A DNA stretch of 64,000 nucleotides. It comes from Pisolithus tinctorius. Taxonomy: Eukaryota > Basidiomycota > Agaricomycetes > Boletales > Pisolithaceae. Location: contig JANFAH010000011.1 in assembly GCA_024663395.1 (NCBI GenBank), positions 1,426,001-1,490,000 of the forward strand. The letters run 5' to 3'. This document shows positions 22,760-58,537 of the stretch, piece after piece. A program made the position numbers and the translations under genes. The notes under the pieces are model-generated. The model searched no databases. It was not told the DNA's origin and was given only the letters and a program-made list of their open reading frames with translations. Position 1 is the stretch's first letter. Every line of letters begins with the position of its first letter.

Positions 22760-23709
22760 AGATATGTTTTCTGGCACCATGACCAGGTTCTGAGGAGATG
22801 TAGTGGGAGTGTTGATAACACGTTACTCTCATATTAGACGCATGCCGGCAGGCTATGTGACCAATTTTCCCACTTGACCCATGAAACAGGATCACACAGA
22901 TAGCAAGGCAATATGATAGAACAGATGGCAGAGCACAATTACAAGACAGACCAGGCAGCAGCCAGGAAATAAAGAACTTGCAACTGCCAGTGCACCATAG
23001 TAACTACTACTTCGAAGTTAGTACTAGTGTTGATAGGGTGAATTTTTAGAACGAAAGGTCATCAATGTCAGCCTCTTTGAACTCATTGAGTTCATCACCA
23101 TCTTCGTCATCCAAATACTAGGGGGTTTTTGTAATGGTGGTTCAGGTGAAAGTAAGGTTGGGGTGTGAAATCTCTGATTTTAAGGGAATATTTCTATAAT
23201 GCGAGCCATAAAAAGCAGAGTGTTAAGTAGGAGAGAGGGGTAATACATATGTCTGATGAAGCCCAAGTTGATGATGAAAGGAAGGAAATGACGAGCATCC
23301 ACTGAAACAACTGTAACATTGAACATGCACAAAGGTATATGGATAGAGAATGTGGATAAATATGGATGGTGCTACTGATAATATACATGATATTGTAGGT
23401 GTTGTGTAATGACACAAATGTTGAAGTATAGTGTTTGCATGATACAGATGAGTTTGTAGGGATCTAAAATGAATGGCAATGTATAGTGATATTATGGATG
23501 ATAATGTGCAAATGTTGAACTTCAATATTTGCGTGATTGATAGCAAATCAATAATATGACATGACCTGAACTACAGTGTGGGATGTGAACTATATATAGA
23601 GAGTCTGGACCATTGATGTAGTGTGAATCAAATCTAAAGATGTGAAGAGTATGTATTTCATTAAACAGCGGAACAACACATGACATCTAGGTTCTGATCA
23701 TACAGACCC
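22760..23709. other. Non-coding flank left of the KDZ element
   Basis: AT-rich and CpG-poor, with frames too broken to call. It includes repeated TATGTCTGATG- and TGATATTATGGATG-like words. Nothing else recognised. Confidence 0.4.
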
Positions 23710-23788
23710 TTCAGTCACATGTAATCCAGAAAGTGGGTCATCCGACATGCACATTTGGTCCTGAAAGTGGGACTAACCGACATCGGCC
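23710..23788 (+). repeat. Left terminal inverted repeat (79 bp)
   Basis: It begins TTCAGTCACATGTAATCC and ends ACCGACATCGGCC. It contains two versions of a motif AAAGTGGG-(5 or 6 bases)-CCGACAT, the likely transposase-binding unit. Confidence 0.75.
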
Positions 23789-23837
23789 TATAGACCCTGA
23801 TGGTGGATAGGCCGACATGTTGGAGGGAGGTCGGCCG

Positions 23838-24795
23838 GCCTCACTGGGGGATGGACCCACACCCTGGAAGTGGTGTCGGCTGACCTCACTGGACGATGGA
23901 TCCACACCCTGGAAGTGGTGTCGGCCGACCTCACTGGACGATGGATCCACACCCTGGAAGTGGTGTCGGCCGACCTCACTGGGGGATGGACCCACACCCT
24001 GGAAGTGGTGTCGGCCGACCTCACTGGACGATGGACCCACACCCTGGAAGTGGTGTCGGCCGACCTCACTGGACGATGGATCCACACCCTGGAAGTGGTG
24101 TCGGCCGACCTCACTGGACGATGGACCCACACCCTGGAAGTGGTGTCGGCCGACCTCACTGGACGATGGATCCACACCCTGGAAGTGGTGTCGGCCGACC
24201 TCACTGGACGATGGATCCACACCCTGGAAGTGGTGTTGGCCGACCTCACTGGACGATGGACCCACACCCTGGAAGTGGTGTCGGCCGACCTCACTGGACG
24301 ATGGATCCACACCCTGGAAGTGGTGTCGGCCAACCTCACTGGACGATGGATCCACACCCTGGAAGTGGTGTCGGCCGACCTCACTGGGGGATGGACCCAC
24401 ACCCTGGAAGTGGTGTCGGCCGACCTCACTGGACGATGGACCCACACCCTGGAAGTGGTGTTGGCCGACCTCACTGGATGATGGATCCACACCCTGGAAG
24501 TGGTGTCGGCCGACCTCACTGGGGGATGGACCCACACCCTGGAAGTGGTGTCGGCCAACCTCACTGGACGATGGATCCACACCCTGGAAGTGGTGTCGGC
24601 CGACCTCACTGGGGGATGGACCCACACCCTGGAAGTGGTGTCGGCCGACCTCACTGGACGATGGATCCACACCCTGGAAGTGGTGTCGGCCGACCTCACT
24701 GGACGATGGACCCACACCCTGGAAGTGGTGTCGGCCGACCTCACTGGACGATGGATCCACACCCTGGAAGTGGTGTCGGCCGATTTCACTGGGGG
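23838..24795 (+). repeat. 45-bp minisatellite, about 21 copies (left arm)
   Basis: The unit, of the form GGACGATGGATCCACACCCT, then GGAAGTGGTGTCGGCCGACC, then TCACT, repeats with almost perfect 45-bp spacing (four units per 180 bases). Variants differ mainly at GGACGAT/GGGGGAT and GATCC/GACCC. Because 45 is a multiple of three, long frames appear on both strands; these are translation artefacts. The palindrome TCGGCCGA sits in most units and keeps its CpGs, although the surrounding element is CpG-depleted. Confidence 0.95.
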
Positions 24796-24830
24796 ATGGA
24801 CACAGACCTCACCACCTGGAAGTAGGGTTG

Positions 24831-25096
24831 GCCAAACCCTGAAAATTCCCTTGGCATAATCAATTGCTTGTCAATTTAGATGTTACCAGAAGTATTGACT
24901 CTGATGACACTTCCAGATGGACATACCCCCTGAGACCAGTGTTGGCCAACCTCACTGGGGGGTGGCCTTACCCCCTGAATCCATGGCCATTCTTCACCTC
25001 CAGGTGATGTCAGTGATCTCACAGGGTTTGAAACTTGCAATGAGCATGGGTAGCCATATATAGGGATCCTTTTGATTCACACCATCTACAGTTTAT
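24831..25096. other. Spacer between left minisatellite and accessory gene
   Basis: Contains a degenerate half copy of the 45-bp unit (GTTGGCCAACCTCACTGGGG near 24,940) and otherwise nothing recognisable. Confidence 0.4.
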
Positions 25097-27475
25097 TTAT
25101 AGACCAAGACCCAGAGCTCTCTTGGTTGGTTGACGAGCTCTAGTTGATTTCTTGCTTGCCTCTTCACCCTCCTTTGCCATCTTCTGATCAACATCCCCAC
25201 TGCCTCCCCTTTTTCTTTTCCTCACATCCTTTCTTGTATTCCGGGATTCCTTCATGCCACCCCCCTGGGTGGGACAGGAATCCCCTGCACTGACCCCAGT
25301 TGTTTCCTGTGCACCAATCCCTCTGCTTGAGCCACCAGAATTCTGCTGCAGTCTTGCAACTACCAGCCCCACTGCACCCATAACATCTTCCCCCTTGTGG
25401 ATATCAAGACCTGAGCCTAGCAAAAAGCCCAGATTAGCAGCTTCAGGGTCATCTGATTCTATGTCCTGTGCTCTTTTGCACTCCCTCCACAACAAACCAA
25501 ATCCCAGTACAATGGTAAGACCTTTTTGGGTGGATGCAAACTTTTCACTTTGCAATTGATACAGTGCCTTCCAGAAGGAATCCCCATTGCCATGCATCTC
25601 CTGGGGCAAATACTGGGCACTCCAGGCCCAAGATGCCCAGACAGGCAGGTTGACTGGTCCAGCATCAGGTTCCTGTACAAAATGTTTGTTAACCTGGTAT
25701 TTGAAGAAAGTTTATCACTTACTGTCTCTGGCAAGCCATCTACAAGCTCAACAAGTTCCTGGTACCTGGGCATGATGCAAAGGGACTTTAAATATTTCAC
25801 CCTGTCCCCATTGGCATGACAAGCAGGGCTGGATTCATGAGGGGTATCTTCAGATGGGGCCCTCCCAGAGTCAAGGATATCCTGGGCCCCTGATGAAGTT
25901 GCTATAGGGGTCATACCAGCCCCACCAATTTCTTCCCCTAAATCTGAGGGCTTGGCCTCCACCCCAGCTTCACTGTCCTCCCCAGGGCTCATCCACTCTC
26001 TCTTTTTGGATGGGGTTTTCCTGTTCCAGGGCCTTCCCAATGGCTCGTCCTCCTTTTTGCACTTGATGAATGAAACAATCACCTTATCCTCCTCCTCTTG
26101 GGAATTCCAATGATTCCAAAGCATCCACATGTCGGCCTTGGTCCATTTTGAAGGATCTTTCATCATGAATCCTTCTGGGATGGAATCGGAACTCAGATAC
26201 TCCAAATGGGACTTGATAAGCAGGCCCCAGGGAACCTTGGCCTTGGGCTTCCCTGTAAACTTTGCTATGTTTCCAACTTCCATCAACAACTGTAGATGCA
26301 CTTGACAATCAAGAACATACCATAGGCAGCCTGGAAGACCATTCTTGCCAAACTCTGCTGGACCTTGAGTTTCTGACCAGTCCAAGCTGGTACCTCTGGG
26401 TTTCCTTCATCATCCAAGGCTATCTCCACCTTTGGATTCTCATCATTCAAATCTTCCTCAGCTGAGTATGGAATCAACCTAGGTACACATATTACATTGA
26501 TCACCAATGTTTATCACTTACCAGCTTCAGTCAAAAGATAATTGGTTAACATTTGCTCTCCCTTTAGAACCCAATCCTTGGTGGGCTCTGAAGACTCTGA
26601 GAAGGCCTTCTTCCCATCAGGGGGTTGTGTTTCAAAGCTAGGTTTCTTCATTAGCATTAGATAGACAAGGTAAAGGGGAACCTACACTGCCATCTTGATC
26701 TGAGAATCAGTAGTCTCATGAGCCAGAAACATCACTATATTTGACCCCATGGTCCTCCTGACTGTTTCAATAAAGTCTCTGGCCATGTTGGGAAAATTTT
26801 TTCTCCTGTACCTGAATTATTGCATGATTAGTATAAGACATTTGAAGTAGACCAGCACTGACAATTCATGAGTTTCTTTTGGAGCTCCCAACTTATTCCA
26901 CTTGGAAGCAGCCCTCCCTGCTTCAGCCTTCTTGTCATCTGCAAGAGACTCCCACCACTGTTGGATGATTTTGGTCCTCTGACCTATGGTCTTGGGGTCC
27001 TTGGTGTCCCTCCTCTCCCTATCATAGGCATCCATGTCCTCTTTGAAGAGCTGCTGGGAGGCAGTAAAATCAGTGAAGGGTTTTCTGTAATTTCCAGCCT
27101 TGGTAGGTCTGGTCCTCTCCTCTCTGCCATCCTCATCCTCACCAGTCCCAGGCTGCTCCTTCCTCTTGTCTGTTGCAGCCAGGATGCTCTCAATGATGTG
27201 TTCCTCATCATCCTGGTCTTCAGGGTCTAGTTCTGGCAAAAACACCCTTCTGATGGCCTAAATACACTTGAGATATGTGAAACTTGATGAAAAAGATACC
27301 CTACCACTCTCAAGTTCTGGGGCAATTCCACAGATCCTGAAGATGCTTGCTGAAGGATCTGGGATTTCACATCAGCCAGGATCTGGGCCCTGAGGTCAGG
27401 ATTCCCTCGGGCATCTGTGTACTGCTCCACATAGGAGGACAGCAGATCAGAGTAGACTTCAGACCAATCAGCCAT
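25097..27475 (-). CDS. KDZ-element accessory gene, uncharacterised, HMG-like segment
   Basis: Starts at 27,475 (MADWSEVYSDLLSSYVEQY) and ends at 25,097 with a basic tail (KKSTRARQPTKRALGLGL). It is read as several exons: an acidic region, then KPFTDFTASQQLFKEDMDAY and QWWESLADDKKAEAGRAASK, whose spacing of Trp, Lys and Ala resembles an HMG-box-like helix bundle; then a middle part (VPWGLLIKSHLEYLSSDS, WTKADMWMLWNHW); then a Ser/Pro-rich linker and PRYQELVELVDGLPE. Exon borders between about 26,640 and 26,500 are uncertain, and one stop may be present near 26,690. Same strand and order as the transposase, so possibly a DNA-binding partner; this is inference. I know no described function. No CpG at all in 26,401-27,000. 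Confidence 0.6.
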
Positions 27476-27708
27476 GAGAGAATAGAATCAGGGGGATAAT
27501 TAGCAGCACAGATGATGGAGGTTGGAAGCAAGGTGAAAATTTTTCAGCCTTTCCCAATTTAGGCAGGAGGTTGAAGTTTTCGGCCATCACTCTTTTAGGA
27601 AAGGTACCATTATGGTATGATTGTTTTGATGTATTTGCTATTCACTTTGATTCAGATACCAAGTGCAAAGCAAGGGTAATCGGAAAACTATACACATATA
27701 CCCATGTT

Positions 27709-30700
27709 CTAAATACAATCCATTTGTTTACCTTGGAACATCAATTGGGCCTTTTTGGAAAAGTCAGTCCACAACACTATCTGCTTATGAGCATAAGCCT
27801 TTTTCCCTGGTTCCAACAATTGTAGAGCCCTTTTCTCCCATATGTCCTTCTGGAACTCAAACCATAAGATGGCCCAAACCATCTCATGCCTCACCAATGA
27901 CAATTCTTCTTTCCACCTGTCCCTTCTTGCCCTTGCTTTGAGCCAGTTGATCCTGTAAACTGCCCCACAATTTATTGGTGAGATTTTTTCGAGTAGTATT
28001 AACACTTACACTCCTCCATTAAACCCCCCTTCTCAGCATTCAGTTGACCCTGTTCACCATCCATCATCCAAAACCATGCCATTTTGCTGGTTCCCTGCCC
28101 AAACCGGTTCTCCTCTGTAACATCCTTACTCACTGCCAGGTCCTGGGGCTGAATAGCCTGATATCTTTGTCCAATCTCTTGATTGGGTTCCAACTGGAGA
28201 ATGGCCTGCCTTGCCCTCTGATAACTTCTGACCTGCTTGTTTATCCGAGCCACCACTTTTTGGATGTCCTGCTTGGTTCTTGTACCTTCCCTAGTTGATT
28301 GTGCACTGCGGAAGTTCTGTCTGTATAACATTGCCTTGTGTCCAAGGTTGGTTCGGAGCTGGTCTAGACAATCATTAGCTTGCCCAATCCTGAGTTCCAT
28401 TTCTTCTTTGAGGAGGTCATGAAGGCCAAGCTCCATCAGTTTGGTTGCTCCAATGGATGAGGGCATCCATATACTCATGAGCTCAGCAGGTAGCTCCTCT
28501 CCTTCTTCTGTAGCCTCCCAATCCTCATCATCTTCCCAGTACTCTCCATTGTCATCAATTTCTTCACCTTGCCCAAGGAATGCTGGATCATCCTGGGGTA
28601 TGAAGACATCATCCACCTCCAAACCTTTGAGAAATGCCTGGCTGGTGCCATGGAATTTGTCAATCCTGGCAGAAAGTCTTTTTCTTTTCTCTGAGACTTT
28701 GATTTCTTGTCTGGTAGACATGTGGCTCTGTCTAAGCTCAGATCTTAGCTGGTCCCTGCAGGTCTGGTTAGCAACCTATTGCTTCTGGAAACCACAGACC
28801 ATACTGTGCATCCTCTATGCTAATTCCTTCCACAAGCCAAGCCACAGAACCATGGCTCCCTGGGGACACAGGTGGATTTTTCATGAGCTTTAACTGCACT
28901 TCACCCATGGTAGGGGCTACAGGCCATCAGACATGCCCAGGGTTTCTTAGGAACATACTGACCTTTTTCCCCTTTCAACAAATAAATGTCTAGGGAATCA
29001 CCTCGATTTGCTTCTGCCTCAAGAACATCTGACTCCCATTGGGCAAGTTGGCCAGGGTCTAGAACAGCTGTCAACTGCTCATATGCCTGATTCATTTCTT
29101 CTAGGCACTTGTGTGAGGTCTTGTATTTTTTCAACAGTGCAGGAACTGAGATGTACAGGGTAAATTAACTTCTCTTTGAAGAAAAGGTCTCTCACCCATG
29201 TTGACAATTTTTTTCCAGTTAGAATCTCTCATATGGTCATCATACACTTCTTGTCTGTGGGCCTGAGTCATAGACCTTGCAGTGGGAGAGATCTTATTGA
29301 ATGGAGCCCACAATGTCTCCAATATTTCACCATCCAGATGACCAGCACCCTTGATAAAGTTGAGGCTATATCTTGGAAAGCAAGAGAGTTTGTGGGCAGC
29401 AAGATGAAACTTCCCCACAGCAGGAATGATTTCCAGGGAGGGAGGGAGATGGAGAGAGCAGCTGGATTTTACCCGACTCTGGAAGTTAATACTCCACTGG
29501 CACCCAACATCATAAATGACAAGGGCCTTTGTGATGCTTTCTGAATGATAATCAAGAGCACTGCAGATGGAGTAATCTGTGTTCATGTACCTAGCACAAA
29601 ATGAGTTCCAAAGGCTTCCAGTACATCCATCAGGTCCACTCACTTTTCCCCTTTCTGAAAGTCCACCACAGAATGGGGAACAAAGCAACCATGCCAAGCA
29701 CAGGCTGTGGCACCAATCCCAGTGGACCGGAGATTGGACTTGTTAATATTAGCAGCATTGATTGCCCTGTGATTGCTGCAGGTGGATCTCTACCAGTACA
29801 GTGGGTCATTTAAACTCCATGACCTTGGGACAACTCACCTCCTTGTTATCCAAAGACTGCTCAAGATGGGCCTGGTAGGGCTTTTCAGCAACCATGTAAC
29901 CAGTTCCATCTGATAATGACACATCCAACTCAGGCTTGTTCATTTTCATATGCTGAGCAGTGAAGTTGCCATCCATGACATATTGCCTCATTATGGTATC
30001 ACTAAGGGGGGAGGGGAGTTAGAAATCAAAACCCTACAGATTATCACTCCATACCTGTCATATCGGGTTTTCCAATCTGGAGGTAAATTAATACCTGGTT
30101 GTGGGCAGGCAGGACAAAAGAGTGCAAGTTCTCCTTGTCTAGGATCTTGTTCTTTATCATGACCAAAGCCAAACCATTTCCTATGTTTCAAATCCCTCCA
30201 CAGTCTGGAAACCCTCATCAGCTCTCGGTACCTGTCCTAATTGGAAATGAATGCATTAATAGAACCCCCTAAGAGCAAATAGTGCATGGCACTCAACTGG
30301 TATACAGTCAGGAAATGCATTGTTGGTGAACCTCTTCAGCTTCTGATAGAAACTCATAGCTGAAGTCTTGCATTCCAGGGCATCAATGAGAAAGTGATTA
30401 AGAACATCAAAGGTGAAAGCAGTCTTGGGCTTTGTTATACTGGCTGGAAAGAGTCTTTCCCTGAGTAAATCAAGGTGCCAGTCCATTGGATCTGACCCAG
30501 GGCAATTGCACCAAGAAATCTCATGAGTGAAAATTCCTTCTGTGTGCACTATGGTCATTTTTGATCTGAAGGATCTCCTGCTACCAGAGGTTAACATGGA
30601 GGCTACAGGATATGACTGCCATTGACCTGTAATTGGGAGGCCCTTCCCCAGAAGTATAGCCCAACTCCTCTGAGTCTGGATCCTGATTCTGTCTGTTTTG

Positions 30701-31309
30701 AGGGCAAGGACGACCCCCATGGCCAATGTGCCAAAGGAACCCAAGTGCCATCAAAGAGGTAGCCTGGTAATGAGTAGCATTCCATCTTTGTACCTTGTGG
30801 AATGGAAGATTTTGATGCACTTTCACAGCACAAGGACCACACCAGGCATGCACACCAATGCAGGACATGCATCTGATACTTCCTTCTGCCTGACAGCACT
30901 GCTCACATATCCCCCCCTTAGCCAGCTGCTCTCCCTCGAGAATGACTTTGAGATATTCTGCTCTCCAAGGCAGCCATTCTCTGATGAAATCATTTTGACT
31001 CTAGGGGATAATTTAGCCAATGCAGTATCAGGCAAAACTTCCCACCTTGGTAACCCTCCTAGTATTTGGGGTATCTTCCTCATCATTCCAGTCCAAGGTA
31101 GGCATGTCAAAGGAGTCTGGGACAACATTTTGGGAGCCTATTGTCCTGGGGGTCCTTGGAGTTGAAGGTTGACTCTGAGATGGGAGGTAGAGGTGTCTAG
31201 CATCCACCTCCTTGTAGGTGTCCTTTCCTCTCCGGGTTTTAGTCACTTCAAATTTATACAAACCTCCTGCAGAGCTTTTGCCAAGGACTTTGGTTCTATG
31301 ACGACGCAT
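27709..31309 (-). CDS. KDZ (Kyakuja-Dileera-Zisupton) transposase
   Basis: Exon 1 (31309-31046) starts MRRHRTKVLGKSS. Exon 2 from 31,000 holds the CxC2-type cysteine cluster (CEQCC ... CMSC ... CGPC ... H) and LPFHKVQRWN ... GHGGRPCP. Further exons carry FTFDVLNHFLIDALE, GHDKEQDPRQGELALFCPAC, the catalytic-core blocks YDVGCQWSINF, VGKFHLAAH and GAGHLDGEILETLW ... VYDDHMRDSNWKKI, then a C-terminal helical part (LRIGQANDCLDQLRTNLGHK, VRHEMVWAILWFE). These match KDZ transposases from N- to C-terminus, giving roughly 950-1,000 aa. Several short introns are needed; some borders are unresolved and I cannot exclude one or two frameshifts (for example near 29,130). It would cut and paste the element by binding its ends. 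Largely open despite CpG loss. Confidence 0.85.
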
Positions 31310-31453
31310 GATTGAGCACAGGAAGAGTCAAAAGCAAGGTTTTCAGCTGTATTGAAAATTTTTCATCCCCAAAACAACACCACACAAGTCCAGAACAAGG
31401 TTATCAAATGTATTTAAAATATTTGTACCCAAAAATTGCCACTAAAATGTGTT
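31310..31453. promoter_or_regulatory. Short spacer between TET/JBP and KDZ genes
   Basis: Only 144 bp separate the TET/JBP stop from the transposase start on the same strand, so the transposase promoter must be compact or overlap the upstream gene. Confidence 0.35.
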
Positions 31454-32780
31454 TTAAGTGTATCTGACAGCCAACCCAAGAATGTCCTTTTGGGTAGTCC
31501 ATGCTGGTCTTGTGACCTTGAGTCGGTCATGTACTTTGTCCTTCATATAATGCACCAATGCAATTCTTTCTCCCTTCTCCCACTTTGGCACAGAATGTTG
31601 AAGGATTTTTCCTGATAGGAAAATCATGGTGCCTGGGGAATAAGCCAGTTCGGCCCCCAGATCTGGAATAAGGAATTTAGCATTGTGAGAACCCAGGCTC
31701 ACTAATGAATCCAGAAGGGTTGGGGTGGATGTGACATCTCGGTGAGAGGGAGTTTCCTGATTGACAATAATATCAATGTTGGTATAGACCGATGGCCAAT
31801 CCAGGGATATCTCATTCTCCACCCTGCCAGCCTTGGCCAACATTGCTTGATCACCAGCCCTGGCCATATCTGGCAATGAGACCTTTGCTATATTGCTCCA
31901 GAAGTGTTCCACATAAGAAATCTTGAGCAGCCATTCCCTATTGGCTTTCTGTTTGAGGGATGTGCTTTGATAGAGTGTATCAACCAACCTCTTTAAATTT
32001 GTCAGCCCCTACCATGGAAATCACAGCACCTGGACAAACCTCATGAGCCTGTTGGAATGTGGCAGGAGACATGGAAATCCTGCCATGTCCATACATGACT
32101 TGGTCAACAGGCTGATGCTTATGGCCATATCGTTTGTTAAGCTTGCTTTTGTCTTTTGGCTTGTTCTTGGGCTCAGTCTGAAGATTGTCTTTTATGGAAA
32201 GGAGAAGGGAATTGAGAAGTTCCTATGATATAAAAGCTGTAGTGAAGGGTTGTCAGAGAATGAAAACACTCACTATCCGTGCATCTGGGACAATACCAGG
32301 CAGATACCATACTATCACCCTGCCATGCACATCCAGAACTGTGGCAGGAGCATTGATATACCCAATTTTTGGGTTTTCAAAATGGATGGTCCTGTCCTTG
32401 GCATGCACCAATGGTTCAGAAAACCTGTCTGCATCCCAATGCATCACATCTATTAAGGGTCAGACTTGGATCACTTGGAATTGTTGTGGAAATCACCTAC
32501 AGGGATTGAGGATGGCATGTGTAATGACTGCAGATGCCAGCCTAACTTCCAAAGATGTAATAGCATCTGAAGTTAGACCAGATTCCCCTTGCAATGTTGC
32601 CCTGACTTGGGTTAACTCAGCCAAGGATCGAAGTCTATTATCCAACTAAATACATAGCAAGTGTAGCATCACTGCTTATGGCTTACCTTGGCTTCCTGAG
32701 CTGGTGATTTGAGAAAATAGAGCTGGAAGAGATCATAGGGACTGTTCCAAAGGCAGCCTTCAGCATTCCAACCACCATTG
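31454..32780 (-). CDS. TET/JBP-family 2-oxoglutarate/Fe(II) dioxygenase
   Basis: Exons end-32687, 32645-32501, 32449-32274, 32222-32040 and 31990-31454 join in frame with introns of 41-51 nt and no stop; the last four give 346 residues. The protein has the fungal TET/JBP order: IHFENPKIGYINAPAT then VLDVHGRVIVWYLPGIVPDA, MSPATFQQAH, and the double-stranded beta-helix core with the iron ligands H-R-D (31,744-31,736; PSHRDVTS) and His in LQHSVPKWE, and the 2-oxoglutarate Arg in GERIALVHYMKDKVHDRL. Such enzymes oxidise 5-methylcytosine. The 5' exon (NAEGCLWNSPYDLFQLYF) has no start codon in frame, so the true start is upstream or lost. The last intron uses an AAG acceptor. Linkage to a KDZ transposase is typical of the family. 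Confidence 0.85.
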
Positions 32781-34099
32781 TATGCAGGGAATCATCCATG
32801 ATGATGTGGGGGGTGTTGGAAAAGTCAAAGGAAAATTTTTCAACCGTGAGAAAAATAGTTAAAAATCACTCAGTACATAAGTTGGAAGTTATTCTCCACA
32901 AGGGACCTTGCTTGACTTGGGGGAAGATCCAGAAACCAGAAACCCAACTTAGTCTACTAGATACACCATGTTTCTTGAAACATCTAGTCATGTAAGCAGG
33001 GGCCTGGAATGGTGCAATCAAACTCAGCAGCAGTTGAACTCCAAGTCAATCCAGTCCAGCAATCTCTTGAGCATCATGGGAAACCATGGAACACCAATAC
33101 TAATCTAGCAATCTAGCAACATCCAACAGCTAGGAACACATCCAGACAGCATTTGAAGGGAAGATGTTGGGTTGCTAGTAATGCCATTGGCAAGCTCTTG
33201 AGCATCAAAGGGAAACCTTGCTTAAGAAGATCAGCCATGGAACACCAGTGCTAATCTAGCACCATCCACCAGCCAGGCAGACTGACATGAAACAATACAC
33301 CAAGTCATTTGCTAAGGTTAGGGTTAGAAGCAGACTTGCATGAAGAAATACACCAAGTCTTATGCTAGGGTTAGGGTTAGCACATGCTTCATTCAAAAAA
33401 AGAAGCATAGATTCCCACACAGCATTCAAATCCAATCAAAGCAGTGACATTTACAAGTCCATACATAAATTCAACTACAGTTACAATTTCAACTACAAAG
33501 GTATAATGGTTTCATAAGAAACCAAGGCTTGCCTGCATTCCAGAGGGGGCCCTCCTCCAGAAGTACAGTTGGGCCAATAAAAACCGTCCTCAATTCAACC
33601 AAGTTCCCAAAAAAGCGCACAAAAGCAGATAACAAAGATCCTAAAAACACATTAGCATCAACACAACTTTTCAAAGTTCACATACCTGAGGTGCACTATT
33701 TATTCACCAGGAGTCAAAGACAAACAGCTCTAGAAAGTTTATGTCAGTACAACATAGATTATACAGAAGTTGAATACTCACTACACCAAAGCCTGACCAA
33801 CTAGCTACTACCAATATATACCAACACATACCACACAAAAAAACGTCATAGGCTGACCCACACAGGTGGGTACAGACCAAATAAAACGTCATAAGCTGAC
33901 CTACAATGTAGGTACAGACTAGCCCCCAGATCCCATGAGCTGGCCTACAATGTAGGCACAGACTATTCCCCCAGACCCAACATATTACCCAACAACCAAA
34001 AATTGCGCTGGCCAAGCACAATCTAAGGTCAAGGGTAGCCCCTCCCTACATCCTGTAGCTGCAGACTACAGTCAATAGTGAGGCGCCAAGGATGCTGCA
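32781..34099. other. Internal non-coding part of the KDZ element
   Basis: CpG-poor sequence with repeated words (CTAGCAATCTAGCA, AACACCAATGCTAATCTAGC-like, GTTAGGGTTAG). Three diverged copies of a roughly 60-bp unit with the small inverted repeat CTACAATGTAG lie at 33,844-33,965. It may include the missing 5' exon of the TET/JBP gene, but I could not define one. Confidence 0.4.
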
Positions 34100-35030
34100 A
34101 AGTAACGGTAATCAAGTAATGTGAAAATTCTGGGATCAGAGGTGCCACTTACCTTATGACAGCCGAGACGACGGGCTGAGATAAAAACGAAGATGACGTA
34201 GCACAGAAAACGGGAAAGAGAGAGGGGGAAAGGGAGAGGGAGATGGAGGGAGAGGGAGATGGAGGGAGAGGGAGGACGACGGAGGGGAAGCGTCACATCG
34301 CAGAGAAACGCAGTAAGGGAAAAAATATGCCACTGACTGGGGGGGATTTATATACTTGAGTCTTATGTACCGTTGTTTGGCCACAGTCCAACTAGCGAGG
34401 TCGCCGTCAATGTCACGTTCTCGGCCTCGGCGCGTGTTCAGTTGCCGTGAGTGCCGGCAACTTCCTCTGAGTCAGTACCGCGTGTCGTACTATACATCGC
34501 GAATAGCGATGTCACGTGACTCCACTGTCACCGGATTCGGCTTCTATATACTAAATACTAAATGTTCGCTTGACATTCTCGTAATTGCATTGTCGAGCCG
34601 AGCAAGCACTCCCTCGTGCCGTTGGCTGAGCGGTAGTGGTGGCTTACCCTTGGGATTTCACAGAAAATGTATTGTAGTAGCACTACCGGATCATTTAATA
34701 CATGTAGTCACTTATTGAAACCGGAAATCGGCCTAGCGGCGACGGACCACTCCGTATATAGTCCTACGTAATGTTCCAGAGACGCATCCGAAGTACGGGT
34801 AGACACGTGTGATAATCATGACAGCCGTGACGTTGTTCATGTCACAATTAAGGTTGTGTCCAAGATTATCACAGGTCTCACTACGTGACCTGTCCAAAAT
34901 CGAGATCTGTGCATCCGAGTATCCGGATTGACACAGTCTTTTGCTCCTCTCCTCTTGCCACACAGTGTCTCCCTCACCGACCGTCGTTGCGTTATCCCAC
35001 TCTCTGGCCCCGCTGCGTCTCAGCGAAATT
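34100..35030. promoter_or_regulatory. CpG-rich island, probable bidirectional control region
   Basis: CpG content rises sharply here inside an otherwise CpG-depleted element. The region lies between the minus-strand gene trio and the plus-strand H3-mimic gene. It contains the 10-bp palindrome GTCACGTGAC (34,511-34,520), several other TGACGT/ACGTGAC words (near 34,411, 34,826, 34,883) and TATA-like stretches (TTTATATAC near 34,349; TCTATATAC near 34,545; GTATATAG near 34,755). A GGGAGAGGGA purine run sits at 34,212-34,275. Promoter role is inferred from position and composition. Confidence 0.45.
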
Positions 35031-36410
35031 TTTGGTACGTCGTCGTCCTCTGGATCTCTCGCGCCTCTCCCTCTCTAAACACAAAATAGGTACGTCGTGC
35101 CGCGTCTCCCTTCAAAAAAAAAACAAAAAAGGTATGTTGTCGAACCTCTCATGGCTTCAACACTCACATCACACACCAGGACGCTGCCATTCTTCTCAGT
35201 CTATTGCGCGTTGTTCAGTGTCCCATACTACTCACAAAGCCCGTTCATTCAAAAAGAAGGTAAGTAGCTCGCAGCGTCCCTCTACAACTCACAAAACACC
35301 CCCCTCCTCTCGCCGGGTCTCATCCAAAAAACAGGTATGTCGTCCTACTTCCCGGCGTCCCTCTACCACTCACAAAAACACCCCCTTGCCGTGCTTATCC
35401 AAAAAAAAGGTATGTCGTCCCAACTTTGCGGCGTCCCTCTACAACTCACAGAACACCCCCTCGCCGTGCCTTATCAAAAAAACAAAAGGTAAGTCGTCCC
35501 AGGTCGCGGCGTCCCTCTACCACTCACAGAACACCCCCTCGCCGTGCTCATCCAAAAAAAAAGGTATGTCGTCCCAGCTTCGCGGCGTCCCTCTACCACT
35601 CACAGAACACCTCCTCGCCGTGCCTCATCCAAAAAAAGGTACGTCGTCCCAGCTCGCGGCGTCCCTCTACCACTCACAAAACACCCACAGAACACCCCCT
35701 CGCCGTGCCTTATCAAAAAACAAAAGGTAAGTCGTCCCAGGTCGCGGCGTCCCTCTACCACTCACAGAACACCCCCTCGCCGTGCTCATCCAAAAAAAAA
35801 AAGGTATGTCGTCCCAGCTTCGCGGCATCCCTCTACAACTCACAGAACACCCCCTCGCCGTGCCTCATCCAAAAAAAAGGTACGTCGTCCCAGCTCGCGC
35901 AGCGTCCCTCTACAACTCACAAAACACCCACAGAACACCCCTTCGCCGTGCTCATCCAAAAAAAAAGGTGTGTTGTCCCAGCTTCGCGGCGTCCCTCTAC
36001 AACTCACAGAACACCCCCTCGCCGTGCCTTATCAAAAAAACAAAAGGTAAGTCGTCCCAGGTCGCGGCGTCCCTCTACCACTCACAGAACACCCCCTCGC
36101 CGTGCTCATCCAAAAAAAAAGGTATGTCGTCCCAGCTTCGCGGCGTCCCTCTACAACTCACAGAACACCCCCTCGCCGTGCCTTATCAAAAAAAAAAAGG
36201 TATGTCGTCCCAGGTCGTGGCATCCCTCTACCACTCACAGAACACCCCCTTGCTGTGTCTCATCCTACAAAAGGTATGTTGTCCCAGTTCCTGGTGTCCC
36301 TGTACCACTCACAAAACACACTAGTAGGCTATCAATTCATATCTCCCTCCTGCCACACTGCATCTCCCTTGCTGTGTCTCATCCAATAAGGTATGTTGTT
36401 GGACTTCTAC
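35030..36410 (+). repeat. Splice-donor-like minisatellite, about 15 copies of 75-90 bp
   Basis: Units start AAAAAAAGGTATGTCGTCCC (variants GGTAAGTCG, GGTACGTCG) and run through CGGCGTCCCTCTACCACTCA, CAGAACACCCCCTCGCC and GTGC(C)T(C)ATC to the next A-run. Each unit therefore contains a consensus 5' splice site (GGTATGT/GGTAAGT), a CTCAC branch-like word and a CACAG acceptor-like end about 42 nt later. CpG is retained in the middle units and decays to TG/CA in the last ones near 36,270-36,400. Long basic open frames across it are repeat translations. Confidence 0.85.
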
Positions 36411-36686
36411 TTCATGGTGTCCAGATGATACTTACATATCACCCTCTTTGGTCTGCTTATCCAGTGCCCAGTGTTGTGTAGTTGCATACATTGGCTTGTC
36501 TTTTCCATAAATATGTAGATATCTATCCCTGCTGCATGATATATGTACTAAACTAAATGCATTTATTGTTATCTTACTGCTTGTCCCCTACACCTTTTGT
36601 GTCTTGTAAAGATAATAAGGTATGCTACTGTTCCCTTCTGTGTCATATGTTGCTGCCACTCACTAATATTGGCATAATACACTCAG

Positions 36687-38274
36687 ATGGTGAAGACCAA
36701 GCAGACAGCTAAGAAGACCACTGGGGGTAGAGCTCCCAGGGTATCTCTTGCTGGTCTGAAAGCTAGGGAAAAACATGCTGCCAAGTCAAGCAAGGCCCAT
36801 GCTAGGAAGGCTCCTGTTGCCAAGAAGAGAAGGATGAGGAACTTGGCAAGTCTCTTTTTATATTCCATCCATCTTTCTAACATTCTATGCAGTTCTGTGT
36901 GATGTGCAGGGATGGAGGGACATTGTGGCCTTGTGATCAGGCAGGATGCAGAAGGGTAGTGTGTAACAAGTGTGTTGTAGTACCTGAGGATTGCCTTGCA
37001 GAGGTCACCCAGCTTCCTGTGACCTTCAGGTGTGTTAACCTCCCTTTTATGAATTAACTCCATTGACTCAAACTCTGGATGAACTTCAGGTGTGTTGCCT
37101 GTCATTGGAAAATGACAAGATTTGAAAGTCCTCAGCCCTATTTTGTAAGTGCATATTGCTACCCCAATCACTTCTAACTCCAAGTACAGGGCTTCTACTT
37201 GTCAGGCAAGCCAGTCCTGAAACACCCTCTTGTGGTCATTGGGGGGTTTGAGCATGCCACCACCTCTGAAGTGGCTGGTAACTCTACTGCCATTATCCAC
37301 CTCCACCTTGAGTCTCTAGAGCTTGGCCATGCCCCTGTGCATATCCTTCACACCATGTTGCAGGGATATTTCAGACAAGACACCTACCACTTCTCACAAC
37401 TGTCCTTCAACTTTGCCACCGAGGAGTCCAGAGCTGCCTATGACACTGCAGCATCAAAGCTAGCTTCAAGTCTGACTACCTTTGCTAAGGTAGTCATTTT
37501 CCTTACTACCCATACTGATGAAGACAGGGGGGATCTGTTCTCTGGAATGGAGAATAAGGTTCCAATAGCCACAGAGGTCTTTGAGGTAAGTCACCATTGT
37601 TTGACTGTCACTCCCATCTGACCAGTTGCAGTTTCTGCAAGGCCTTCTGTTACCCCTCTCCAACATTGTCAAGGGTGGAGACCTCATCTTCTTTGTATGT
37701 GGTTCTACTGTAAGGAAGGAGCAGAGCTTCCAAGGACTGAAGGCAGCTGTGCAACAGTAGGTTTTCTTTCAATGTTGGTGGTTATGGCTGACACCATATC
37801 AGTTTCAAGCCAAGGTCCATGTTGCTTTTTGATGCTGAGAGACTTCAACTAGTCACCACCATTCCCTTCCTCATGAGTGTCCTTGACTCCACCCTTGTTC
37901 AAGGCTTCCATGTCCAAAGTGCAGTCAGGTATGCCCTGAATGACTGTGGTATGTTGGGTAGGCACTCCAACATCATCCTGATGTTGTGGCAGGAGAAGGT
38001 AGTGGTGGAGAAATTTGTCTGGACTGACAAGTTCATCAGGCCTTGGGGACAACAATTGCCTGCCCAGTGCCCTCAGTGTTATAGCATTCAGAAGTGGGAA
38101 GCTGGTTGTTCAGGGCAGACTTATTCCTATGAGTGCAAGAATCCTGGCTGTGGGAAGGACACACAAGGCACATCTCAGCCTCCCCAAACCTATACTATCT
38201 GCATGTCCAAAGGGGCTACCAAACTGACACAGGGAAAGGGGCAAACATCATCCTGGCTGTTGGAATCTTTGTAA
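36687..38274 (+). CDS. Histone H3-tail mimic with PHD-like finger, possible His/Cys-dyad domain and zinc ribbon
   Basis: Six exons (36687-36845, 36893-37029, 37090-37144, 37190-37585, 37632-37756, 37803-38274) join in frame to 447 aa with no stop. Residues 2-17 read VKTKQTAKKTTGGRAPR: histone H3 residues 1-17 with Lys4 and Lys9 kept, Ser10 to Thr and Lys14 to Arg. A Lys/Arg-rich stretch follows, then a PHD-like finger (FCVMCRDGGTLWPC, CRRVVCNKC, FRCVACHW). A globular domain has VVIFLTTHTDEDRGDLF (His225) and DLIFFVCGS (Cys272), and the C-terminus has a CPQC ... CKNPGC ribbon and ends SSWLLESL. Intron 1 has a GCAAGT (GC-AG) donor and a CTAAC branch site. I recall related unnamed proteins in other Agaricomycetes. 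Function unknown; binding or decoying H3-tail readers is inference. Confidence 0.8.
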
Positions 38275-38689
38275 AATACCCTACCTTGATACATATGATA
38301 TGCATGTACTACAATCAAAAATAGCTGCTTTGTGTTTTCAAATTTCATATGACATTGAATGTTCAGAAAAAAAAGTAATTTCCTGCAGGACAATTCCTCC
38401 TTAAGTACTGATACACAACTGAGTAAATTTGCCCAATGTTAATTCCAATACAATCGCCAGATTGGTAGAGTTAACTTCAATACCACAGGATAAGGATAGG
38501 ATATAGGATTTTTCCACAACCATCTGGGTTCAGCCAGCTAACTACCAAGGAAGTAGTGTACTGAGTAATAAGATTGGCCAGCCCCACTAACCCACTAGCA
38601 AGATATTGGTCTTTCTTGCAAAGTGTCTGCCCAACCACAACTCCAGGTCATGGTTCATTCCCCCCAGCCACATCAGCTGACCCCACTGC
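38275..38689. other. 3' flank of the H3-mimic gene
   Basis: AT-rich, no gene recognised. It leads into the right minisatellite through degenerate units. Confidence 0.4.
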
Positions 38690-40665
38690 CAGGACATCAT
38701 CCCTTCCCCCAGCCATGTCAGCTGGCCCCACTTCCAGGTCACTAATCCATCCCATAGCTGGTTTGGCCAACCCCACTTCCAGGTCACTAACCTATCCCAT
38801 AGCTGTGTCAGCTGACACCACTTCCAGGTCACTAATTCATCCCATAGCTGTGTTGGCCAACCCCACTTCCAGGTCACTAATCTATCCCATCTGTGTTGGC
38901 TGACCCCACTTCCAGGTCACTAATTCATCCCATAGCTGTGTTGGCCAACCCCACTTCCAGGTCACTAATCTATCCCATAGCTGTGTTGGCTGACCCCACT
39001 TCTAGGTCACTAATTCATCCCATAGCTGTGTTGGCCAACCCCACTTCCAGGTCACTAATCTATCCCATAGCTGTGTTGGCTGACCCCACTTCTAGGTCAC
39101 TAATTCATCTCATAGCTGGGTCAGCCAACCCCACTTCTAGGACACTAATCTATCCAATAGCTGTGTCAGCTGACCCCACTTCTAGGACACTAATCTATCT
39201 CATAGCTGTGTCGGCCGACCCCACTTCTAGGACACTAATCTATCTCATAGCTGCATCGGCCGACCCCACTTCTAGGACACTAATTCATCCCATAGCTGTG
39301 TCGGCCGACCCCACTTCCAGGACACTAACCTATCCCATAGCTGCATCGGCCGACCCCACTTCTAGGACACTAATCTATCTCATAGCTGTGTCGGCCGACC
39401 CCACTTCTAGGGCACTAATTCATCCCATAGCTGTGTCAGCTGACCCCACTTCTAGGACACTAACCTATCCCATAGCTGCATCAGCCGACCCCACTTCTAG
39501 GACACTAATCTATCTCATAGCTGCATTGGCCGACCCCACTTCTAGGGCACTAATTCATCCCATAGCTGCATCGGCCGACCCCACTTCTAGGGCACTAATT
39601 CATCCCATAGCTGTGTCGGCCGACCCCACTTCCAGGACACTAACCTATCCCATAGCTGCATCGGCCGACCCCACTTCTAGGACACTAATCTATCTCATAG
39701 CTGCATCGGCCGACCCCACTTCTAGGACACTAATCTATCTCATAGCTGTGTCGGCCAACCCCACTTCTAGGACACTAATCTATCTCATAGCTGTGTCGGC
39801 CGACCCCACTTTTAGGGCACTAATTCATCCCATAGCTGTGTCGGCTGACCCCACTTCCAGGACACTAACCTATCCCATAGCTGCATCGGCCGACCCCACT
39901 TCTAGGACACTAATCTATCTCATAGCTGTGTCGGCTGGCCTCACTTCTAGGACACCAATCTATCTCATAGCTGTGTCGGCCGACCCCACTTCTAGGGCAC
40001 TAATTCATCCCATAGCTGTGTCGGCCGACCCCACTTCCAGGACACTAACCTATCCCATAGCTGCATCGGCCGACCCCACTTCTAGGACACTAATCTATCT
40101 CATAGCTGTGTCGGCTGGCCTCACTTCTAGGACACCAATCTATCTCATAGCTGTGTTGGCCGACCCCACTTCTAGGGCACTAATTCATCCCATAGCTGTG
40201 TCGGCCGACCCCACTTCCAGGACACTAACCTATCCCATAGCTGCATCGGCCGACCCCACTTCTAGGACACTAATCTATCTCATAGCTGTGTCGGCTGGCC
40301 TCACTTCTAGGACACCAATCTATCTCATAGCTGTGTCGGCCGACCCCACTTCTAGGGCACTAATTCATCCCATAGCTGTGTCGGCCGACCCCACTTCCAG
40401 GACACTAACCTATCCCATAGCTGCATCGGCCGACCCCACTTCTAGGACACTAATCTATTTCATAGCTGTGTCGGCCGACCCCACTTCTAGGACACTAATC
40501 TATCTCATAGCTGTGTCGGCCGACCCCACTTCTAGGACACTAATTCATCCCATAGCTGTGTCGGCCGACCCCACTTCCAGGACACTAATTCATCCCATAG
40601 CTGCATCAGCCGACCTCACTTCCAGGTCATCAATCCATCCTATAGTCATGTCAGCTGACCCCACT
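38690..40665 (+). repeat. 45-bp minisatellite, about 44 copies (right arm)
   Basis: The unit has the form GCTGTGTCGGCCGACCCCAC, TTCTAGGACACTAATCTATC, TCATA, spaced at 45 bp. Units at the left edge (38,690-39,130) read TTGGCCAACC/TCAGCTGACC, that is CpG-decayed; central and right units keep TCGGCCGACC. Higher-order blocks of four units (180 bp) recur around 39,780-40,500. In reverse complement its core AGAAGTGGGGTCGGCCGAC matches the left array core GGAAGTGGTGTCGGCCGAC. The 628-residue frame through it is a repeat translation. Confidence 0.95.
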
Positions 40666-40746
40666 TCCAGGGAAGTTGATCCATCATCCTGTGACATAGG
40701 CCGACCCCACCTTCACAGTCTGGCCTACCCAACCCTAGGGACCACC

Positions 40747-40825
40747 GGCCGATGTCGGTTAGTCCCAGTTTCAGGATGAAATGTACATGTCGGATGACCC
40801 ACTTTTAGGACTACAAGTGACTGAA
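40747..40825 (-). repeat. Right terminal inverted repeat (79 bp)
   Basis: Read on the minus strand from 40,825 it begins TTCAGTCACTTGTAGTCC and ends ACCGACATCGGCC, matching the left TIR at 71 of 79 positions. Confidence 0.75.
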
Positions 40826-41159
40826 TCATGTGGATCATAAGATGTGAATGAGGATGAAGAATGAATATATGTGATCATGCAGTTTAAATTAAATGGAGGA
40901 GTATTGACACTTAAACACTGACAACACAAGCAGGTACAGGATGGACACAGGTATGATAGTATGCTGAATGAGGTGAACTGATTCAGCAGGTCGACTCAAT
41001 GGCATCTAATCTAGGATATTTGCAATGATAGATGGACATGATTGACAAAATGAGGTGGATAAGGGGAGGTAAGATATGTCACAGATGGAAGAGATAAAGC
41101 ATTGACTGACCTGTTTTATCTCACACTGATACCAGGATGATGACCATGCTTGAGATGAT
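40826..41159. other. Flank between KDZ element and long GGQHR-family copy
   Basis: AT-rich, no gene seen. It should hold the original promoter of the next gene. Confidence 0.4.
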
Positions 41160-49256: not shown

Positions 49257-52200
49257 GTGGCTTTGCAAGAACCTTCCCCCATAGATACCCCACAAATGGA
49301 TAGCAACCTCGCCCTCACATCAGAACAAGAACCCGTAACAGATTCACCACCAGAGTACACATCCACACAAGGCATCCCCCCTACAAGCCCACAAAGCCCA
49401 GGGTCAGACAACTCAAACAGAGACAGTGAAGAACAGTGGTTGGGTGTACTGGGACTGCCAATGTTCTACACAGGATGACCACCCACAGCACGACCCCGGT
49501 TCAGGACAACAACGCTAACACCAGATGCCGCCCCCACCATGGTGTCACAGCCAGCACCAAGATACACACTGTTCCCCAGCCAGCTACCAGTACACACACC
49601 CACCACCACCACCATTCCCACACCCAACCACTCAACAACAGCCCTAGCATGAGGCACTGTAATGGACAGCCCCAAACCATTCAGGGGGGATGAAGACGAT
49701 CCACAAGATCCCCAGACATTCCTATGAATGTTCAAGCAAGTCATGAGGATTGCAGGAATAACAGATGAAGCAGAGAAGATAGAGGCACTACAGGACTACA
49801 TAGTACCACACTCAGAGGCACAGAAATGGTATGACAAACTAACAGGCTCACAGCAAGCTGCATGAGCAGCACTAGAGACTTGTTCAACCAATGATGGGAA
49901 CCCTTACCACCTGCAGAGAAGACAGCTGAGATGTACCAAGAAGAGCTACTCACACTGACCTTGGCTGATGAAGAGGTGGGGATGACGAAGGAGGTCAATG
50001 GGATGAAGGTCTGGACACACGTAATATGGGTGAGAGAAGCACTCCATCTGGTGAAAGCAGCAGAGGTAGCAAATAACATCAGCCTAGTCTGCATTGTCCA
50101 CAAGAAACTACCAAAGGTCGTCCGACACATGATGAAGAACAAGTACAAAATGTTCAAGGAACTAGTGAAAGAGGTCAGAGAACTGGATGTGGAAGAGATG
50201 CAGAGGGAACAGGAAGAATTGGATGAGTGCAAGAAAGATGACGAGGAGAGGGAGAGAAGGATCATACAACAGCAAAAAGCCTCCATCACAGACATTACTT
50301 CCTGTCTCCAGAGCCTCACAATCCAACTGCAGAGAACCCTACCACCAATGAACATGACCAACACATGCTATGCCATACAACAAACTCAGTGTCCAACACC
50401 ACCACCCCCACTCATGGAGACACAAAAAACCATTATACACAACAACATCATGCAACTCCAGCACCACACATCAGACAATGCAGGATGGAGAGCATATAAC
50501 ACACAAGTGACACAATGGATGAGAACACATGGAGAAGGAACCCAAGTAACAGAGAACACACCATACCCCATCAGTAAATCACTTTTGCTGGCCAGAGCTG
50601 TCCAGAGCTGTCCAGCACTGGACAGATTCCCTAGGACTGCCAGCACACAAAGTGGTTTACTGATGCCTCTCAAACTGGGCACCGCAGCAATATGCTCGGG
50701 TGAATGCTACAAATGTGGCACACACAGACACACAAGCAGGGACTGCCTGATAGCCCCAGGGGACCCTATGCACCTCGACCCCAAAGAAACCGCATGGAGA
50801 GCCATTTGCAACAGAGCCTTGGGACCATTCAACAGAACAGTGACAGTGGAAGTTAGATTAGTCATCATGGACAAACCAGGAAATGGGAAGGGTCATTGTA
50901 ATGGACAGACCAGCGATCCCACATACACCAGATCTTCGAGTACCCAGTACAATGACACATGTAACAATCAACAGTGGAGTAGCCGATATATACACTGCGA
51001 GTCATGACATGACAACACTCGAAGACAACAAGACTGTCCCATTCGTTCACCACATAATGATCGTCAGCAACAGTGGAGAAAGAGTATGAGTACAAGCCCT
51101 CTTTGACAATGGAGCAATGATTAATGCGATGTGCATCACTGTTTACGAAGAGATAAAACATAGACTAAGGGGGTGGTCAAATTGCTCACAAATGCTAAGA
51201 ATGGCTAATGGCATGATCACCCCAGCAGTAACACAGTGGACAGGACAGATAATGATTGGACCAGTGCAAACTGAAACAACATTTGTCATGTTCAACAGTG
51301 GGGGAAACTGGGCATTCCTACTAGGGAAACCACTACTGCAAGCCCTATGAGAACAACACAACTACAGCACAGACAATATAACGATCACAGACAGCATCAA
51401 CACCAGGGTACTGACCAACAGATACCATGACACAGAATACACTGATACGTTCGCATGCTCTGTCAAAGAAGTCCTATTGGTCCCAGAAGCATCAATAAAC
51501 CTCAACATACCAGAAGGACTCAAGTTCACAACATCCCCATGACAACAACCCCTATCACCACCACAAAAAATGTTTATGCATAAATGGATGCAACAGATGC
51601 TCAATGCAGGAATGATAGAGCAAGTGGATGTCTCAAGAATCAAGCACATTGCACCGACAGTCCTCACACAGAAAACACATGACAATAAAGCAAGCCTAAC
51701 ACTAGAAGACCTACAGCACAAACTAAACAGGCAATGCGAACAAGCCAGAGCGGAAATACCATTCCCAACAATACCAAAAGTGAAGGACACCAGCCAGATA
51801 CAAATGCAGGAGGACAATAGGACCACAAAATGGCAAGTAACACAGAACTTCGCAGAACTGAACAAAGTCATGCAGATACCACTGCTGCAACAAGGCAACA
51901 TAAGGGCTAAGCAACAATGACTCAGCAGACATAAATACATATCAGTATTTGACTTCACATCTGGCTTCTATGCAATTGCAGTACCAGAAGAATGGAGACC
52001 GTACCTGACATTCTTCATGGAAGGACAGGGGTATTTCTGGTACACAAGGATGGCCATGGGCCTCATGGGAGCACCAACAACGTTCTCACCAGTGGTAATG
52101 AACATACTACATGACTTACTAGCTGACAACGTCATAGAACTATTCATCGATGACTGTCGATGCAGCAATGACACATTCAGGGGCATGATAACCACCCTAC

Positions 52201-54425: not shown

Positions 54426-54724
54426 TGACTACCGTCCTTCATACCGAAGGAAGGAACCAGACTACATAAGGAGCAAGAGGAATATATAAGGGGGTTAGTG
54501 CAACGAGTGGTGGAGATGAATGGGGAGAACAAGAGAATAAGGGAATCAGTGGGAGACATGGGACAAAAGGACAACAAAACCACAGATGGTGGGACTGAAG
54601 AAGACAACGGGATCACAAGTAGTAGAACCGAAGGAGCCACCACAGATGTGGAAGGCCCAGAAATGGATGGAGTGGTAGAGGCTTTAGGCAACAAGGACAC
54701 TGCTGTTTTTTTGATGGGGCCACA

Positions 54725-58337: not shown

Positions 58338-58537
58338 CTGGTAGCTCTTGGATGATGGGTAGACATTTATTGATCATGTATAATGCATTAATACAAGTTC
58401 GATATGTTATTTGACATGTATCTTCCAGGATAAGTAACTACCATGTATTGCTAGTCAAGCAGTGCTACAGGGCCTGGCATGTCGGAGTCAAATTTTATGG
58501 CAGCAGTGGCTGGCCAGAGTGCGATTCCAGAGCACTG

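Follow-up and report, generated by a model that had tools for sequence, protein, structure and literature searches.

H3-tail mimics have previously been described in viruses and, in a few cases, among cellular proteins, and KDZ and TET/JBP were reportedly treated by Iyer and others in 2014. Two Kyakuja families that carry a TET gene have been described, with 7-bp target site duplications and 5'-CA..TG-3' ends and without terminal inverted repeats (Kojima 2025; PMC12730594). The element described here lies in a 64,000-nucleotide stretch of the Pisolithus tinctorius genome (GenBank assembly GCA_024663395.1; contig JANFAH010000011.1, forward-strand positions 1,426,001 to 1,490,000), referred to below as the window, and resembles those families in its KDZ transposase, TET/JBP gene, 7-bp duplications, CA..TG ends and Boletales host. 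It differs in carrying a gene for a protein that begins like the tail of histone H3; in the available parts of the Kojima report no such protein is described, and the main text there has no mention of PHD, zinc finger, mimic or Pisolithus. No description of the H3-tail protein turned up in a literature search, a result that does not show absence from print. The product of this gene in the KDZ element is very probably a real H3-tail mimic with a PHD-like finger and a predicted caspase-type fold.

The predicted gene has a coding sequence of 1344 nt encoding 447 amino acids (aa) with zero internal stops, and introns of 47, 60, 45, 46 and 46 bp, the first being GC-AG and the remaining four GT-AG. 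Its features, in window coordinates, are as follows.

36687..38274, + strand: gene of the H3-tail protein, with six exons and a product of 447 aa; spliced translation free of stops, splice sites recurring in most of 44 copies
36687-36845, + strand: exon 1
36690..36740, + strand: H3-like tail VKTKQTAKKTTGGRAPR, equal to H3 positions 1-17; read directly, 13 of 17 residues identical to host H3 1-17
36893..37029, + strand: exon 2, coding for ligand cysteines one to six (C55 to C80) of the PHD-like finger
37090..37144, + strand: exon 3, with the final two ligand cysteines and the CHW of the finger; the eight cysteines do not vary among the 19 aligned fingers
37190..37585, + strand: exon 4, opening part of the CHAT/caspase-like domain; codon of the putative catalytic His225 at 37511-37513
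37632..37756, + strand: exon 5, with the putative catalytic Cys272, codon 37698-37700; Cys 98% conserved
37803..38274, + strand: exon 6, end of the CHAT-like domain and a C-terminal CPQC...C...C zinc-ribbon-like part, from the family alignment

An earlier note on this DNA had proposed an intact six-exon gene within a KDZ element, and this is borne out by the stop-free model, by matches to KDZ, CxC2 and Tet_JBP domains, and by the borders and duplication of the element. Its gapless alignment to H3 1-17 also stands for the N-terminus MVKTKQTAKKTTGGRAPR, with the correction that the 17 H3-like residues occupy precursor positions 2-18 and not 2-17. Compared with canonical H3, the tail carries the S10T and K14R differences that had been named and three that had been missed, A1V, R2K and R8K. 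Host H3 genes from the same genome encode the tail ARTKQTARKTTGGK, with Thr at position 10, and the interpretation of Thr10 as a deviation from H3 was rejected, since host H3 itself has this residue. Thr instead of Ser was seen at this position in the host H3 genes of which the 5' end was read (L009-L014).

The codon pattern of the tail was found at 41 exact sites in the genome and the reversed pattern at none, and a profile built from 11 members of the family matched H3 chains of the PDB set with a best E of 7.4e-6 (profile positions 1-40). Chance likeness to H3 was rejected on these two results and on the slow site rates given below. As to whether the tail derives from an H3 gene of the host, the codons partly agree with those of host H3, and divergent copies use other codons.

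Two protein searches yielded 122 distinct homologues, mostly from eight named Pisolithus species, with others from Suillus, Rhizopogon, Boletus, Butyriboletus, Lanmaoa, Melanogaster and Paxillus; Dentipellis was a source outside the Boletales, to which the named homologues otherwise belong. The earlier note had held that homologues lacking the tail would speak against mimicry. This refutation did not come about, a TKQT-kind tail being present in 91 of the 122 retrieved. Of the remaining 31, the tail is incomplete or changed in 8 (P0018, P0037, P0057, P0071, P0109, P0110, P0115 and Dentipellis P0120), 21 are gene models missing sequence ahead of or at the finger, and 2 have the finger and no tail (P0069 and P0070). 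The tail persists in relatives with just ~25-35% identity to P0025, and some divergent members are nearer to H3 than the window copy is (ARTKQTARKTTGDKAPR, 16 of 17).

The rows of the 55- and 46-row alignments were selected from the 122 proteins, and 51 of the 55 rows were used for site rates. In the 55-row alignment, Lys4 was present in 96% of 50 sequences, Lys9 in 94% of 52, and Lys at position 14 in 25% of 52; position 8 was Lys in 51 of the 91 tails and position 10 varied. The mean site rate was 0.46 for H3 1-9, roughly half that of the remaining sites, compared with 1.22 for the linker, 1.03 for the finger and 0.93 for the CHAT part. T3, K4, A7 and K9 fell within the slowest 3-7% of sites (K4 and K9 within the slowest 6%) and position 14 within the fastest 10%, with unremarkable rates at positions 1 and 8. 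H3 1-9 differed from all post-tail sites with a Mann-Whitney p of 2e-4 in the 51 sequences, a set obtained by a search that favours tail-keepers. Judged from sequence, the H3 likeness seems to be kept by selection.

The most improbable of the alternatives is that the N-terminus was captured or arose by chance, has no histone function and was spread by copy number. A near-neutral ratio across residues 108-447 in recent copies would suit it, but the tail is kept in the relatives of ~25-35% identity to P0025, is slower than the rest of the protein, so that the rate test disfavours this explanation, and also occurs in clades that were detected by tail-free searches.

The initiator Met was within the slowest 2% of sites, which argues for translation starting at the Met of the tail. 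Position 2 was A, V, T or P in 82 of 83 Met-preceded tails, and as these residues would permit Met removal, exposure of the tail is possible. No relatives were found among IMG/VR viral contigs, and a hunt for other H3-tailed proteins had just 3 candidates and returned 2 family members, a result too small to tell much.

The P. tinctorius genome was also searched with query parts holding neither tail nor finger, and upstream exons were then read where fetched, an approach that corrects the bias towards tail-keepers just in part. Tails of the new clades were of the MARTKQTAKKSACGTATRV type at 5 places (8 loci, with Gln2 at one place), MPRTKQTAKKSNGGVAPRV at 2 places and MARTKQTAKKVTGGHAPRL at 1, and types with a replaced Lys4 are described further below. 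No tail was found at L058 (where a TGHAPRLNL remnant was seen), L062 or L090, all decayed in appearance. In several other tail clades, among the P0109, P0111 and K4R types, copies were alike across the fetched flanks. In the predicted proteins H3-likeness is general in the clades read, with Lys4 and Lys9 usual and not universal.

Within the genome, 44 gene copies were aligned, namely that of the window and 43 others, most of which had the modelled splice sites in common. Intron 1 was GC-AG in 42 of the 44, the exceptions being L056 (GT-AG) and L040. Recurrence in intact copies, which the earlier note had named as support for mimicry, was found, as 26 of the 44 had no stop or frameshift, although in L042, which is among them, the third donor site reads AT. 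Compared pairwise with the window copy, dN/dS was mostly 0.1-0.7, with a single copy at 1.17. As pairwise values for the tail region were inflated by the broken or misaligned copies L037, L040 and L057, pooled ratios were restricted to the 26 open copies. In these, tail codons 1-18 had 1 silent and 0 replacement differences, residues 19-52 had 4 silent and 4 replacement, the finger 4 and 8, and residues 108-447 had 14 and 46. Published Pisolithus assemblies are described as holding primary and secondary scaffolds (PMC10066745), and the assembly of the window is presumably the one published there; the 41 tail sites may therefore include alleles.

The fingers of ATRX, CHD4, AIRE and SP140 read the H3 N-terminus when Lys4 is unmodified, and that of ATRX also reads Lys9 trimethyl. 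The suggestion in the earlier note that a PHD-like finger follows the tail was upheld by a profile of 19 fingers, selected out of 36 identified by their motif and one more recognised by eye, which matched ATRX best in the PDB set (9.5e-7), then CHD4, AIRE and SP140. Eight cysteines in the PHD zinc-ligand order were invariant in all 19, and the likeness to these four readers lies both in the metal-ligand pattern and in the sequence profile. A usual PHD finger has His at one ligand position where the family has Cys, as does ATRX. By its profile, the finger is of the kind that reads the free H3 N-terminus.

In a Pfam scan of 46 members, PF00628 (PHD) matched 4 (best E 0.0018, 18.7 bits, below the cut-off of 24) and PF21255 (DNMT3_ADD) matched 8 (best E 0.0011; P0028 below cut-off). 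No family was above cut-off for the protein among the matches listed, the cut-offs in the 46-member scan being for one member. In the ADD domain of ATRX and DNMT3 a GATA-like finger precedes the PHD part. The family finger differs from this layout in having no GATA-like finger ahead of it, and a true ADD domain was rejected, residues 1-54 of the window protein being without cysteine.

The finger motif was present in 74 of the 91 tail-bearing gene models, and tail and finger occurred together in the clades where the DNA showed both. It is rather unlikely, yet a serious rival to action in trans and compatible with this pairing and with a finger of the H3-tail-reader kind, that the tail fills the protein's own finger and restrains the protease until nucleosomal H3 with unmodified Lys4 displaces it, making the protein active on chromatin alone. 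Autoinhibition of DNMT3A follows the same logic. There is also a precedent in BAZ2B, in which an H3-like stretch binds the finger of the same protein (PMC5663869). In the structure model of the family protein, however, self-docking of the tail was not predicted, residues 1-13 being undocked with pLDDT <50 and the tail starting at residue 1, and conservation of Lys9 and Ala7 goes beyond the requirements of a K4-type finger.

The central region of the protein was modelled as a CHAT/caspase-like fold and is a putative protease, a feature absent from the account in the earlier note. The residues of the putative dyad are conserved in 0.98 of 54 sequences for His and 0.98 of 51 for Cys, and in the model the Cys follows a strand lying one helix away from the His-bearing strand. 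A search of a viral structure library gave 2 matches at 0.001, one to an unnamed protein of a phage and the other to a caspase domain protein from a giant-virus sample. This modelled fold, the conserved His and Cys and the H3-reader type of finger would also accommodate a histone-clipping role, in which the finger brings the protease to H3, the H3 tail is cut, and the protein's own tail is an auto-processed, substrate-like pro-peptide. Such a role is decidedly doubtful, as there is no evident cut site, the linker behind the tail is the fastest part of the protein, and the protease activity is itself putative.

The features of the surrounding element are as follows.

23703..40832, strand not assigned: whole Kyakuja-type KDZ element, 17,130 bp, 5'-CAGACC ... 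CATGTG-3'; borders common to two other copies
23696..23702, + strand: left target site duplication, 7-bp GATCATA, read directly
40833..40839, + strand: right target site duplication, 7-bp GATCATA, read directly
29134..29742, - strand: open frame containing a KDZ transposase domain (positions 98-217 of the 217 in the model); PF18758, E 1.9e-28
30259..30750, - strand: CxC2 cysteine cluster associated with KDZ transposases; PF18803, E 5.3e-24
31457..32008, - strand: TET/JBP dioxygenase domain; PF12851, E 3.2e-9, 36.7 bits, cut-off 34.9
35269..36319, strand not assigned: 76-bp tandem array immediately upstream of the H3-tail gene
23830..24808, strand not assigned: left 45-bp subterminal tandem array
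38726..40671, strand not assigned: right 45-bp subterminal tandem array

The 7-bp duplications and 5'-CA..TG-3' ends were found in 2 of 3 copies of the element, with GATCATA in the window and GGGGGGC, which is of low complexity, in the C2 copy; no matching duplication pair was present at the ends of the C46 copy. The ends have ~67-69% inverted likeness across the subterminal arrays. Contig 42 carries a diverged element with its parts ordered as in the window, and its KDZ and CxC pieces are 92% and 83-91% identical, respectively, compared with 42-62% for the TET pieces, 46-52% for the tail protein and 51% for one piece of another frame, ORFx. As these identities fall far below those of KDZ and CxC, the tail protein and TET are among the fastest-evolving parts of the element.

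The co-occurrence of the tail with KDZ/TET loci suggested in the earlier note was also found, and the interpretation given there is supported in part. A TET match lies 5' of the tail site, in divergent orientation and within 15 kb, at a minimum of 23 of the 41 sites, and at least 20 of these matches are at 4.3-5.5 kb. That the element also has a TET gene speaks for anti-silencing. Together with Lys at position 8 in 51 of 91 tails, the variable position 10 and the existence of a K9N clade, it makes highly improbable a self-restraint, as opposed to an escape, in which methylation of the tail would draw HP1-like or other silencers to the element's own protein, even though Lys9 with Ala7 is conserved in most members.

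Further open frames of the element are found at 25100-27487 (- strand), with pieces 51-73% kept in the contig 42 element; no Pfam match was found for those frames that were scanned, and one is HMG-box-like in appearance, an impression only. Some gene models of relatives translate an apparent 76-bp-like array as an N-terminal extension ahead of the tail. No Rfam match at gathering score was found in 20000-46000. Outside the element, open frames resembling a Ty3-type retrotransposon polyprotein (51000-54500, + strand) and akin to a Harbinger-type transposase (56854-58373, - strand) were recognised by eye. Remote matches to the C-terminal part of the tail protein on contigs C19, C67, C99, C106 and C122 were in all five cases ~7 kb from a Plavaka transposase match. 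The C67 locus (L095), the sole one read, has a C-terminal fragment alone, of which the main piece is 61% identical to P0025, and Plavaka is for this reason not claimed as a second carrier.

It is quite possible, at a little under an even chance, that the H3-tail gene is an accessory gene of the Kyakuja KDZ transposon with a product that would act as an anti-silencing protein engaging factors that bind the H3 tail. An action in trans is proposed slightly more tentatively. Among the possible roles, a decoy or bait acting in trans is the most likely, as Lys9 and Ala7 are kept along with T3-Q5, beyond the need of one cis-bound K4-type finger, and anti-silencing fits the adjoining TET gene. Removal of the initiator Met would expose the tail, and host factors recognising H3 residues 1-9, such as H3K4 and H3K9 writers and readers, may take it for H3. 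The tail would then compete with nucleosomal H3 and weaken silencing of the element, the decoy acting alongside TET on DNA, and the conserved His/Cys pair might cut the bound factor, or H3 itself. A fuller scenario, which is unlikely, is that the mimic lures the host's H3K4/H3K9 readers or writers to a protease of caspase fold, to be destroyed by it, while TET clears DNA methylation, the system having spread via KDZ-type elements of Boletales and the mimic having diversified (K4, K4R, K9N) in an arms race.

Several observations weigh against the anti-silencing explanation. Protein searches based on shared words are biased towards tail-keeping relatives. Lys4 and Lys9 are strongly conserved overall, but two related clades are K4R and one of them is also K9N: a MARTRQNAKKTTSG-type (K4R) tail was found at 6 loci of one further clade and a MVRTRSSTKNAKGGSASRV-type (K4R, K9N) tail at 3 loci. 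The tail at L093, VRTQQSTKKTTSRIAPR, has no Met and is K4Q, and that of Dentipellis P0120, TRTIASAPKATSSSAPRK, has Ile at position 4. Given these K4R, K9N, K4Q and Ile4 variants, modification of K4 and K9 is not the function in all members. Only 41 of 86 tail-bearing gene models begin exactly at the tail, and the upstream residues of the rest, if real, would bury it. The finger motif is absent from 17 of the 91 tail-bearing models, and the commonest weak match of the finger was the CK II beta zinc part (19 of 46 members, below cut-off). Among the Pfam matches listed (25 of 32 families in the 46-member scan) there was no CHAT or caspase family, and Foldseek against PDB gave nothing at 0.001, the best match being procaspase-1 at 1.5e-3. 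Finally, the pooled replacement/silent ratio in the 26 open copies was near-neutral, at 0.97 for residues 108-447 and 0.74 overall.

The mimic has seemingly been selected in the protein family, and at least 2 lineages are on KDZ transposons beside a TET gene. If it works as a mimic, it would offer a direct view of a DNA transposon combating chromatin silencing, and a natural tool to find and manipulate fungal silencers that bind the H3 tail. What appears new here is a tail mimic fused to a finger closest to those of ATRX, CHD4, AIRE and SP140 and to a fold modelled as CHAT/caspase-like. The CHAT and caspase proteases (8tl0 SAVED-CHAT, C11 and caspases) share the predicted fold, with His and Cys after successive strands, whereas identity in structural alignments is ~10% and no Pfam match was among those listed.

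PAF15 and DPPA3 are cellular vertebrate proteins, which are not known to be mobile or to have a caspase-like domain. They resemble the tail protein in having an H3-like motif that competes with H3 for a PHD finger, although the shared motif is of just 3 residues; the VRT motif of both binds the UHRF1 PHD finger, ART/VRT-like motifs compete with H3, and mouse DPPA3 inhibits chromatin binding by UHRF1 (PMC11187062). BAZ2B likewise combines an H3-like stretch and a PHD finger in one protein, but its histone-mimicking linker is internal and lysine-rich, not an N-terminal tail, and neither transposon nor protease features in the available parts of that report (PMC5663869). In CHARM, an engineered fusion of the H3 tail to Dnmt3l, an H3 tail on another protein also engages a chromatin enzyme, but CHARM is man-made and promotes silencing (PMC11875203).
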